This document shows positions 60,709 to 63,527 of a stretch of 64,000 bases of DNA, piece by piece. The first letter of the stretch is position 1. Each line of letters starts with the position of its first letter. The stretch is from positions 1 through 64,000 of the forward strand of contig JAECUM010004983.1 of assembly GCA_016617855.1 (NCBI GenBank). Direction: 5' to 3'. Origin of the DNA: Megalonaias nervosa. Taxonomy: Eukaryota; Mollusca; Bivalvia; Unionida; Unionidae. Position numbers and translations under genes: made by a program. Below the pieces are notes generated by a model. It saw nothing but the letters and a program-made list of their open reading frames with translations. It had not been told where the DNA came from and ran no database searches.

Positions 60709-60724
60709 GGCCCTGAAAAGGGCC
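60709..60724 (-). terminator. Histone-type 3' stem-loop of gene A
   Basis: The minus strand reads CCCAAAGGCCCTTTTCAGGG then CCACTTCA: a 6-bp stem, TTTC loop, and the A-rich 5' flank and CCA 3' flank of metazoan replication-dependent histone mRNAs. A purine-rich GAAAAGAT lies about 15 nt downstream, as for U7 snRNA pairing. It starts 38 nt after the gene A stop. Confidence 0.9.
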
Positions 60725-60762
60725 TTTGGGTTCTTCTTCTTTTATCTTCTTCAGTTCTTCCA

Positions 60763-61314
60763 CTAGCTCCTTATTTTCCCAATAATTCCTTTCTTCTTAC
60801 TCTTCACTTCTTCTGGCATCCAGGCAGGATGTCCCATTGCTCTAAATTTCTCTTGCACTTTTATCCAGTTCTTATTTAGTCTGTCAAACTCCTCTTTCTT
60901 CTTTTTGTTTTCATTGTCCTTCCTCTCTTTTGCCCAGGTCTCCTTGATCTTCTTGACTTCTTCTTCCAATACCTTTTTCATCAGGTCTTCCGCTTTCTTT
61001 ATATTTTCTAAGCCTTTTTCTACAAAAGACCATTCTGTTAAAATGAATGTGTCATCCAAAAAACACCTTATTTTGGTTACAACATCAAGGGTCTGCTTCA
61101 ATGTGCCTACTCTGACATATTTTGGATAGTTGAAGCCTCTCAGCTTATCCGCTTCCTCCACTATTATGCCTTGTAGTTCATAACTTGCTACTTTCATACT
61201 TGTCATAAAGTCTAGGCTGACTTCAAACCTCCACTCCATTTGAAGTCTTTCCACCACATGGACTCCATCTATCATCCACCACCAACAGTCTGTTAACTTG
61301 TTAAAAAGATCCAT
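60763..61314 (-). CDS. Gene A: 183-aa helical protein with histone-type 3' end
   Basis: I do not recognise this protein. It is a single-exon 183-aa frame beginning MDLFNKLTDCWWW, with no signal peptide or membrane segment. From about residue 105 to 155 it is a K/E-rich, coiled-coil-like helix (ENIKKAEDLMKKVLEEEVKK onward). It ends in a Lys-rich tail (KSKKKGIIGKIRS). The central part LMKKVLEEEVKKIKETWAKE aligns with gene C (LIEEVFRGEIKK...EEWTEK), so they appear paralogous. A TATA box lies about 45 bp upstream of the ATG and a canonical histone stem-loop 38 nt after the stop. Those signals imply S-phase-type, non-polyadenylated mRNA. The protein is not a histone and not strongly basic overall; function unknown. 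Confidence 0.8.
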   Translation of the reverse strand: MDLFNKLTDCWWWMIDGVHVVERLQMEWRFEVSLDFMTSMKVASYELQGIIVEEADKLRGFNYPKYVRVGTLKQTLDVVTKIRCFLDDTFILTEWSFVEKGLENIKKAEDLMKKVLEEEVKKIKETWAKERKDNENKKKKEEFDRLNKNWIKVQEKFRAMGHPAWMPEEVKSKKKGIIGKIRS

Positions 61315-61333
61315 CTTGTATTCTGTGTTGAAT

Positions 61334-61393
61334 GGCGCGAATGACGAACGCTATACTTTTATATACTTCAAGCACGGACGTGAAGGAAAACAT
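61334..61393 (-). promoter_or_regulatory. Gene A promoter (TATA plus shared upstream box)
   Basis: TATATAAAAG (61365-61356) lies 6 bp downstream of TTTTCCTTCACGTCCGTGC (61390-61372). The latter recurs unchanged before gene B and in altered form before gene C. TTCGCGCC (61341-61334), an E2F-like sequence, lies between TATA and ATG; its use is unproven. Confidence 0.75.
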
Positions 61394-61394
61394 C

Positions 61395-61975
61395 TCTTAC
61401 ACTCACTGCACATATTATATACTATCCACACAAACGGATGAGAAGAAAAAACACACCATATATTACTATCCACACAAACGGATGAGAAGAAAAAACACAC
61501 AAATATACTATCCACACCAACGAAGGAAGAGATGAAAAACACACCCATATACTATCCACACCAACGTAGGAGAACGCACAAAACACATAAATTTACTATC
61601 CTCACCAACGAACGAGAAAGCATAAAACACACCCATATACTATCCATAGCAACGAAGGAGAACGCACAAAACACACAAATATACTATCCACACAATCGGG
61701 ATGAGAAGAAAAAACACATCTATCTACTATCCTCACCAACGAACGAGAAAGCATAAAACATACACCCATATACTATCCACACCAACGAAGGAAGAGATGA
61801 AAAACACACCCATATACTATCACACCAACGAAGGAGAACGCATAAAACATACACATATATACTATCCACACAATCGGGATGAGAAGAAAAAACACATCTA
61901 TCTACTATCCTCACCAACGAACGAGAAAGCATAAAACATACACACATATACTATCCACACCAACGAACGTGCCTG
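61395..61975. repeat. ~45-bp minisatellite, ~13 units
   Basis: Units read ATACTATCCACACCAACGAA, GGAGAACGCACAAAACACAC and close variants. A ~178-bp block including ACAATCGGGATGAGAAGAAA is duplicated at 61690 and 61870. It fills the space between gene B's end and gene A's promoter. Because 45 is a multiple of three, frames stay open through it; they are not genes. Confidence 0.9.
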
Positions 61976-61978
61976 CAA

Positions 61979-62070
61979 ACACACACACACACACACACAC
62001 ACACACACACACACACACACACACACACACACACACACACACACACACACACACACACACACACACACAC
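61979..62070. repeat. (CA)n microsatellite
   Basis: Perfect CA tract of about 92 bp. Confidence 0.97.
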
Positions 62071-62160
62071 AGAGTAAAGGAGTGAGTGTTTATAGTCACA
62101 CTACTCTACATTCACACGAATTGGCAAAGTGAATAGTCTCTTTTTTCTAGAGATCTGGCT

Positions 62161-62176
62161 AGCCCTGAGAAGGGCT
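62161..62176 (-). terminator. Histone-type 3' stem-loop of gene B
   Basis: Minus strand AGCCCTTCTCAGGGCT, 6-bp stem and 4-nt loop, preceded by AAAACC and followed by GAAAAAAGAGA about 13 nt downstream. It starts 30 nt after the gene B stop. Confidence 0.88.
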
Positions 62177-62206
62177 GGTTTTTTTTAGAACTTCAAATGC
62201 ACCTAG

Positions 62207-62680
62207 CTAATGGTGACACCTTCCTGGCCTGGCACCACACATGCAACGTCTGCTCCAGTCATTATCCCAATTGACACGAGTGGTTGGGAGAGCAGACGGG
62301 GCATGAGTGGCTTCACTATCCCACTCCTCTGTTTGTGGAATAGTGAAGACTTGTTGTTTCCTCTGTCCTCTGTGCCAGACCCGGGGATGATGATGATGAT
62401 GATGATGATGATCTGGTCTCCTTGTCTCCTCTGCACGGTGTACTGGTTGAGGTGGTCGTACTGTCTGTGAAGGTGTCCTCATTTCTGGCTTCACCTCACA
62501 CTGAGGCATCATGAAGAGGTGAGGCAGGATCTTTTCCTTCTCCATTTCTTTCTTTTTCTTCTCCTCCTCTGCTATCTTGTCTTTCTCCTCTATGGCCTCC
62601 CTAGTCAGTTCGTCTAAAAGACGCCTGGCATACTTCAGGTGCATTTGGAGTTCCAACAGTTTTTGTAGCCTGCTACTCAT
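62207..62680 (-). CDS. Gene B: 157-aa His-rich protein with histone-type 3' end
   Basis: Unrecognised single-exon protein. Residues 1-55 form a charged helix (MSSRLQKLLELQMHLKYARR, then EEKDKIAEEEKKKKEMEKEK). The middle is Pro/Arg-rich with a run of eight His, encoded by an ATG/GAT triplet tract that has probably expanded. The C-terminus is SRRCMCGARPGRCHH. The opening MSSRL matches MPSRL of gene C, and the leader sequence before the ATG is almost identical in the two. A TATA box lies 50 bp upstream and a histone stem-loop 30 nt downstream, followed by a conserved flank also found after gene C. No domain of known function is visible. The 3' signal predicts a replication-linked transcript. Confidence 0.78.
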   Translation of the reverse strand: MSSRLQKLLELQMHLKYARRLLDELTREAIEEKDKIAEEEKKKKEMEKEKILPHLFMMPQCEVKPEMRTPSQTVRPPQPVHRAEETRRPDHHHHHHHHPRVWHRGQRKQQVFTIPQTEEWDSEATHAPSALPTTRVNWDNDWSRRCMCGARPGRCHH

Positions 62681-62686
62681 TTTTAA

Positions 62687-62765
62687 GTTGACGAGTCAAC
62701 GATGGTAGCTAGACTGACGATTGTGCCGCTTTATATCCCTGGAGCACGGACGTGAAGGAAAACAT
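62687..62765 (-). promoter_or_regulatory. Gene B promoter and leader
   Basis: TTTTCCTTCACGTCCGTGC (62762-62744), TATA box GATATAAAG (62737-62729), then a leader with CAGTCTAGCTA and the inverted repeat GTTGACTCGTCAAC (62700-62687) just before the ATG. Confidence 0.75.
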
Positions 62766-62769
62766 TCCC

Positions 62770-63000
62770 TAGCCCCAAAACTAAACATCACATCAAACGC
62801 CCGGACTTAAAAGAAACACTCACGTTAACTTTTTCATTTACAAACACAGACATACACGATTGGACAAGACAGAGAAAACAAAGGGTGGATTTTTTACTGA
62901 CAAAAGAAACGAAGTGCTTATAGACACACTTTTATTTATTTTTTTAAAATTTTAAATTTTTTTGGCAAATTGAATGAGTATGTCTTTTTGAGAGTATTGG
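62770..63000. other. Spacer between genes B and C
   Basis: No coding sequence. The part at 62945-63000 is the conserved 3' flank of gene C, sharing TTGGCAAA.TGAAT and a CTTTTT block with 62120-62160. Confidence 0.6.
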
Positions 63001-63002
63001 GT

Positions 63003-63018
63003 AGCCCTGAAAAGGGCT
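63003..63018 (-). terminator. Histone-type 3' stem-loop of gene C
   Basis: Minus strand AGCCCTTTTCAGGGCT with upstream AAAAAAACCC and downstream CTCAAAAAGACA. It lies 36 nt beyond the in-frame stop at 63055. Confidence 0.9.
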
Positions 63019-63054
63019 GGGTTTTTTTGTTAACGGGAGTAATGGCAATCTTTT

Positions 63055-63441
63055 TTACTGTCCATGATTGCGTCCCCGTCTGGCAGCAGGCTTTCCTATA
63101 CGATACGGTCTGCTTCTGCGGAAAGAGAAAGAGAATTCTTTGGTGTCCACACGGCAGTCCACAAAACCTCTGTCTGGCTCTTGTTGCTGCTGTTGCTGCT
63201 GCTGCTGCTGTTGTTGCTGCTGTTATTCTTCTCTCTGCTTCTTCTGAAGTCTGTACTTCTCAGTCCATTCTTCTTAATCTTTCTTAATTTCCCCTCTAAA
63301 GACCTCTTCTATCAGGTCTTGGGCTATAGATAACATCCTGACATTCTCTATCTCTTCAGGTTTAGGTATCAGGTTTAGCCTGACACGATGTAAACTGACG
63401 TAAGCTTCGTTCAGCTGGGCTAGTCTAGAAGGCATGTTCAT
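63055..63441 (-). pseudogene. Gene C: third paralogue, interrupted by two in-frame TAA
   Basis: The start is the ATG at 63441 or 63435; the second gives MPSRL, aligning with gene B. The first 55 codons give MNMPSRLAQLNEAYVSLHRV through RGEIKKD, then TAA (63276-63274). The same frame continues coding-like: EEWTEKYRLQKKQREE, a second TAA, a glutamine run, then DRGFVDCRVDTKEFSFSFRR and GKPAARRGRNHGQ to a stop at 63055. That stop lies 36 nt before the stem-loop, matching genes A (38) and B (30), so the original protein was about 128 aa. Both stops could come from CAA by one C-to-T change. It may be a pseudogene, a shortened 55-aa gene, or a recoded one. Confidence 0.7.
63181..63230. repeat. CAG/CAA triplet tract in gene C
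   Basis: TGCTGTTGCTGCTGCTGC-type run on the + strand; encodes poly-Gln in the gene C frame. Confidence 0.85.
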
Positions 63442-63443
63442 AA

Positions 63444-63527
63444 GTTGACGAGTCAACAGTGGATAGCCAGACTGGAGACCAACCCACTTTATATGGTTCA
63501 AACGCGGACGCGATAGAAAACATCCCT
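63444..63527 (-). promoter_or_regulatory. Gene C promoter and leader
   Basis: GGGATGTTTTCTATCGCGTC then CGCG (63527-63503) is a diverged form of the shared upstream box. TATA box CCATATAAAG (63496-63487). The leader has CAGTCTGGCTATCCA and GTTGACTCGTCAAC (63457-63444), as in gene B. Confidence 0.72.

Follow-up and report, generated by a model that had tools for sequence, protein, structure and literature searches.

The window analyzed in this work is a stretch of 64,000 nucleotides (nt) from the bivalve Megalonaias nervosa, which comprises positions 1 to 64,000 of contig JAECUM010004983.1 (131,029 bases; assembly GCA_016617855.1, 2.19 Gb in 54,709 contigs) and has a G+C content of 35.0%. Toward its end, three genes, which we will refer to as A, B, and C, lie in tandem on the minus strand, and each of them is followed by a stem-loop of the type that terminates replication-dependent histone mRNAs. 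In this copy, gene A (60763..61314) is an open reading frame (ORF) of 183 amino acids (aa) and gene B (62207..62680) one of 157 aa, while gene C (63055..63441) consists of 128 codons, including two in-frame TAA codons (63274-63276 and 63223-63225). The 16-nt stem-loops, all on the minus strand, viz. GGCCCTTTTCAGGGCC for gene A (60709..60724), AGCCCTTCTCAGGGCT for gene B (62161..62176), and AGCCCTTTTCAGGGCT for gene C (63003..63018), are separated from the stop codons by 38, 30, and 36 nt, respectively, within the 30-40 nt stated in the first-pass annotation of this DNA, and the coordinates given there were confirmed. A purine-rich, A-rich element resembling the histone downstream element is present on the same strand after each hairpin (GAAAAGAT at 60687..60694 for gene A, GAAAAAAGAGA at 62137..62147 for gene B, and CAAAAAGACA at 62981..62990 for gene C); this part of the earlier description also stands, the element lying 14, 13, and 12 nt past the stem in A, B, and C. 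Similarly, the description of three genes holds for their anatomy but not for their frames, as gene C is interrupted by its two TAA codons and gene A ends early here.

The Rfam model Histone3 (RF00032) matched all three hairpins on the correct strand, and the flanks of these hairpins also agree with its consensus. The gathering threshold of this model (34 bits) was passed only by the hairpin of gene A (36.5 bits), those of genes B and C scoring 19.5 and 30.5 bits. Each hairpin folds into the expected six pairs (with a z score of -2.65 for that of gene B), and the first stem pair, which is G-C in A, is A-T in B and C, both sides of the pair being altered. A scan of the whole window with the UYUN-loop consensus retrieved three hairpins, all on the minus strand within 60251-64000, and none was obtained in 300 dinucleotide shuffles of that interval. 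Exact AATAAA or ATTAAA signals are absent from 60000-60709 and from the interval between the hairpin of gene B and the start of gene A.

Gene A is present in at least 150 copies in the genome. A search with protein A gave 150 scored matches, including that of the window, among 6,789 candidates, and these were distributed over many contigs. As many as 137 of these best 150 contained no stop codon within the match; because the matches are the best-scoring ones, intact copies are favoured in this count, and the stop codons of the window's own gene A fall outside its match. The copy counts in this work, which cover gene A, the terminal region, and the hairpin, are lower bounds. For 13 stop-free copies of gene A, 74 of the 78 pairwise comparisons were usable, and none of them gave a ratio of nonsynonymous to synonymous substitution rates (dN/dS) as high as 1 (median of 0.236, maximum of 0.846); judged by this ratio, gene A is under purifying selection. 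To the copy in the window we further added 20 of the 150 matches, spread over the range of identity, and the frequency of minority letters was determined over these 21 copies. It was 1.5% in the hairpin and 0.5% in the downstream element, compared with 6.5% in the spacer between them and 12.3% and 10.8% in two stretches beyond the downstream element. The six bases before the hairpin (0.0%) and the five after it (1.0%) were also nearly invariant; the stretch from -24 to -7 showed 0.5% but is partly coding. The exact 16-mer was found in 17 of the 21 copies, and of the other four one has a G-T pair that keeps the stem, one a change in the loop, and two a mismatch at pair 2. A variable spacer between a conserved hairpin and a conserved downstream element is the pattern that processing by SLBP and the U7 small nuclear ribonucleoprotein (snRNP) would be expected to leave. 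The claim that non-histone genes carry histone-type 3′ ends is thus supported by the anatomy, the Rfam match, and this footprint.

The three genes also resemble each other at their 5′ ends. A promoter motif and TATA box precede each of them on the minus strand (61358..61393 for A, 62730..62765 for B, and 63488..63523 for C), those of B and C being 89% and 81% identical to that of A, and the TATA box lies 41-55 nt ahead of the ATG. The upstream motif common to the three promoters is ATGTTTTC..TC.CGTCCG.G. Between genes B and C, the promoter and 5′ untranslated region (UTR) are 74% identical over 89 nt and the hairpin region 81% over 67 nt, yet despite this similarity of the untranslated DNA their proteins hardly match. 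In profile comparisons, P was 0.0004 for B-C (15 columns), 0.001 for A-C (29 columns), and 0.03 for A-B. The proposal that the genes are related to each other is therefore sustained for the untranslated DNA of B and C, whereas for the proteins the relationship is weak. A near-palindrome, GTTGACTCGTCAAC, was also observed at 62684-62705 and 63441-63462 in the 5′ UTRs of B and C, and it has no counterpart in A. Genes A and B are separated by a 44-bp tandem array (61416..61967), and similar repeats occur in two other copies (L022 and L026).

Searches in a database of 5.8 billion proteins identified six relatives of protein A (from metagenomes), 13 of protein B, and 12 of protein C, and none of these relatives carried a listed Pfam domain. 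The earlier statement that none of the three proteins is a histone was upheld, as no histone family was detected by Pfam in A, B, or nine relatives of C. Protein A is predicted to be a helical bundle, with a predicted local distance difference test (pLDDT) score of 81.8, and its tail is basic and Trp-rich in intact copies. Protein B has a conserved C-terminus bearing Cys and His residues (RRCxCGARPGRCxH), and protein C is basic, with an isoelectric point of 9.3 and 9.7 in two relatives. Six of the 12 relatives of C read 112-126 aa unbroken, and one is 188 aa long with an upstream extension. The sequences of three relatives extend upstream of the start and match the promoter, TATA box, or 5′ UTR in the window: P0025 and P0028 for gene C, where promoter motif and TATA box are kept, and P0010 for gene B, where the 5′ UTR is kept. 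These matches comprise 41 of 45 bases (P0025), 28 of 33 (P0010), and 59 of 66 (P0028), and were reached by 0, 1, and 1 of 20,000 random places, a sample in which the true one may be included. Farther upstream in P0025, another stretch matched at 44 of 63 bases (0 of 20,000 random places); the stretch intervening in this sequence, with 30 of 48 bases (96 of 20,000), is unconvincing.

On the sequence evidence, the A-B-C array sits at one end of a Polinton/Maverick element. The element end is formed by AGTAGTGTAG from 60348 onward, and the terminal region (60348..60747) contains the hairpin of gene A. In an alignment of seven copies (that of the window and six others), all begin with AGTAGTG at 60348 and their outer flanks are unrelated; this common start and the unrelated flanks identify 60348 as the element end. 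Similarly, the blastn matches of the six other copies to the window begin at 60347 or 60348 in every case. At about 60363-60420, five of the six are diverged from the window between two matching stretches. Repeated GGGGYRATTTG motifs were observed just inside the element end (60363-60457), where the sequence is partly different in five of the six other copies. The terminal region also holds an imperfect inverted repeat (60523..60603) with two TGACGTCA sites, which we take to be of the CRE type. In a search with 60480-60760 (281 bases), 40 of the 3,508 candidates were scored as matches, and the 39 besides the window's own are 94-98% identical.

A 5′-AG terminus is a hallmark of Polintons. The genes following the array were examined in ten kb of the window's contig from 63001 (L019), which carries an integrase core, a weakly matched A32/FtsK-like ATPase, one ORF resembling a protease, and several resembling capsid genes, all on the same strand. 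The integrase core (L019:5629-6006) matched PF00665 at 1.6e-6 (3e-6 in a second search), with 28.7 bits against a curated cut-off of 32.6. The ATPase (L019:8994-9488) matched PF04665 at 5.9e-4 and PF01580 at 2.6e-3, and L019:8704-9177 matched PF04665 at 0.05, all below the cut-off. A DNA polymerase type B (DNA_pol_B_2, PF03175) exceeded its cut-off (27.4 bits versus 25.8) in L020, a related copy in which the terminal repeat and hairpin are likewise present; it is known from that copy and not from the window's own, and two frames neighbouring it gave no polymerase match. Pieces like this polymerase frame are present in L021 (86%) and L023 (66%), and the hairpin was found in L020, L021, and L023. 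This gene set agrees with that set out for Polintons in one study, which includes an integrase, an FtsK-like ATPase, and a type-B polymerase (PMC4028283). L024 shows the order A-B-C again, as does L022 with a strongly diverged A (28% to P0001); two A-like stretches are present in L026. A zinc-knuckle protein (zf-CCHC, 3.4e-11; L020:6986-7639, minus strand) was additionally observed adjoining the polymerase, and a similar frame is found at L021:2832-3236 (plus strand). The protease-like gene begins to be seen in the window at 63712..64000 (minus strand), where its C-terminal part, with broken frames, runs past the window's end, and an AATAAA (63660..63665, minus strand) lies about 50 nt past its stop, which was placed near 63712 by hand count. 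By eye its frames resemble an ORF of L024, and a tblastn search with that ORF matched L019:1142-834, i.e., contig positions 64142-63834.

The association of the hairpin with this element was also seen across the genome. A search with RF00032 gave 75 scored matches of 423,121 candidates, 66 of them over the cut-off, and among 14 control genomes one was matched and none over the cut-off. Element genes or the terminal repeat were present within about 1-1.5 kb in 65 of the 68 loci that were inspected out of these 75; this number becomes 64 without L056 (a capsid-like match of 34%) and 63 if L036 (a Lys-rich A match of 31%) is also omitted, and the loci L037, L040, and L085 showed no element features. 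The first-pass annotation had proposed such a scan for the stem-loop profile next to homologs of the A, B, and C proteins. None of the 68 inspected loci matched any of five histone queries at 1e-6; as the genome search described below found no intact histone H4 gene, this lack of histones may stem from the assembly and the ranking of candidates. At least two further element genes, which we refer to as D and F/E, end in the histone-type manner. Gene D (64-77 codons) ends 27-35 nt before a hairpin in L012, L017, L018, and L054, and gene F/E ends 24-50 nt before one in L030, L033, L048, L051, L053, L058, L069, and L070. As these loci were picked by their hairpin, they show that the genes can end in this way and not how often they do so. 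In other copies, terminal pieces with 77-88% similarity adjoin gene D, and due to its location near the terminal repeat and the polymerase, gene D seems to mark the other end of the element. Separately, a contig from IMG/VR (L009, 114 kb) was observed to contain, at 1966-1989 on the minus strand, a near-complete histone-type hairpin with five pairs and an A-C mismatch, followed by an A-rich stretch and outside the listed ORFs; this is possibly due to chance.

The copy in the window is a damaged provirus among many copies that keep gene A open. Its gene A has TAG at codon 184 and TGA at codon 188, where intact copies have Trp, and the latter end at the position of codon 191. In the 12 plus-strand copies, to which this count is confined (eight minus-strand copies being left out), the tail is whole in nine, five of which read NWWKNWRR and the others TWWKNWRR, WWKNWRK, WWKNWRR, and WWNKWRR. 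In the remaining three, L099 is read in another frame, L100 has a frame shift, and in L106 the first Trp is replaced by TGA. The window copy has an intact gene B, and its promoters and hairpins are also intact. The possibility that histone-type ends function in active elements while the copy in the window is transcriptionally dead has about an even chance of being correct: the nonsense codons in A and C and the stop-free copies elsewhere speak for it, the intact promoters, hairpins, and gene B against it, and it is compatible with the explanation that we favour.

According to this explanation, an integrated Polinton/Maverick (polintovirus) carries A, B, and C as accessory genes at one of its ends. 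Each of them has a TATA promoter with the upstream motif, a short 5′ UTR, a frame that is uninterrupted in intact copies, and, past the stop codon, a stem-loop of the histone type followed by a purine-rich element of the U7 type. The sequence data establish this anatomy, its recurrence with the element, the conservation of hairpin and downstream element, and selection on protein A. The host SLBP and U7 snRNP would cut the transcripts a few nt past the stem to produce mRNAs without poly(A), and this would link expression of the accessory genes to S phase, or else to germ cells and embryos with abundant SLBP, a timing favourable to an element that replicates its DNA. The proteins would then be accessory factors wanted during host DNA replication, while the neighbouring protease-like gene with its AATAAA would use ordinary polyadenylation. 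That the accessory mRNAs of this Polinton are processed by host SLBP/U7 is, in our assessment, probable. The first-pass annotation had instead suggested a host family of chromatin or germ-line genes that forms a tandem array, as histone genes do, and produces mRNAs of the replication-dependent histone type. This suggestion accounts for the histone-like anatomy, the genes' own promoters, and the purifying selection on A, but it is very unlikely in view of the common end with unrelated flanks in seven copies, the distribution of A over many contigs in 150 scored copies, and the occurrence of integrase and ATPase in the window's contig and of a polymerase in a related copy; it was not sustained, the array representing accessory genes of a high-copy Polinton that ends at 60348 and in which integrase and ATPase follow. 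The hairpins might also serve the DNA ends or the replication of the element, in which case their histone likeness would be convergent and the mRNAs polyadenylated. The hairpins of A and D lie in or beside the terminal repeat, and a poly(A) signal is present past the hairpin of C, as this explanation would have it. However, the hairpins of B and C lie in the interior of the element, at 1.8 and 2.7 kb from its end and each just past a stop codon, the downstream element at its near-fixed spacing is conserved as well, and the flanks agree with the RF00032 consensus, so that we consider this explanation improbable.

A number of observations weigh against processing of Polinton mRNAs by SLBP/U7. 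The hairpin of gene B is weak against Rfam, and the exact 16-mer is missing from four of the 20 chosen copies of A, in two of which a pair is broken. Overlapping AATAAA signals (62931-62940, minus strand) are located about 63-72 nt past the hairpin of C; at this distance they may constitute a back-up poly(A) site, and gene C could also be polyadenylated. A strict scan for hairpins after F/E in L020, L021, and L023 found none, and the scored RF00032 matches are incomplete, as they omit the window's own hairpin of 36.5 bits. A query of the genome with histone H4 produced six matches but no intact H4 gene to serve for comparison of the host hairpin and downstream element, the best match departing from H4 after residue 79 and the rest being fragments or containing stops. 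Lastly, the protease and capsid names are ones that we presume (an adenovirus-like protease and a jelly-roll capsid) and are unconfirmed by Pfam, which gave no match worth naming for these ORFs, and a PDB sequence search with the protease-like ORF was empty.

Several other features were observed in the window. These include a Mutator-like transposase ORF of 466 codons (15040-16440, minus strand; PF20700, 2.7e-48), an ORF with the zinc-binding loop of His-Me homing endonucleases (14013-14510, plus strand; PF05551, 1e-11), a 52-bp satellite of about 46 copies (31540-33924), a DDE_3 transposase fragment below the curated cut-off (51647-51952, minus strand), and reverse transcriptase fragments at 7198-7554 (minus strand, below the curated cut-off) and 25917-26339 (plus strand).

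With animal replication-dependent histone genes, A, B, and C share the uninterrupted frame, the short 5′ UTR, the 6-bp stem with a UYUN loop 30-38 nt past the stop, and the purine-rich element 12-14 nt past the stem, whereas they differ in having no histone domain and in being located inside a mobile element. With the Polinton/Maverick elements (polintoviruses; adintovirus-like), the element shares the integrase core, the weak A32/FtsK-like ATPase, the type-B polymerase (found in a related copy), terminal sequences that are related between the two gene ends, and, as we presume, the 5′-AG end and the capsid-like genes; it differs from them in its several accessory genes with histone-type 3′ ends. 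The words "histone" and "stem-loop" do not occur in the main text of two papers on Polintons (PMC4028283 and PMC8097293), and our other literature searches were not aimed at Polintons. According to one published account, no metazoan coding mRNA other than that of histones is known to end in a stem-loop (PMC6303110). It appears reasonably probable to us that a whole lineage of animal Polintons took over the histone mRNA 3′-end system for its accessory genes, with A, B, and C at one end and D and F/E at the opposite one. Its genes would then fall into two classes, one dependent on SLBP and expressed in S phase, the other structural and polyadenylated, and the mRNAs of the former would be the first non-histone coding mRNAs of this type. 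For annotation, a warning follows from the 65 of 68 inspected RF00032 loci in this assembly that carry element features, while none matches a histone. If true, a virus-like element using the histone-type mRNA end would break the histone-only rule and would show how such an element ties its genes to DNA replication, and transcriptomes selected for poly(A) would miss its mRNAs.

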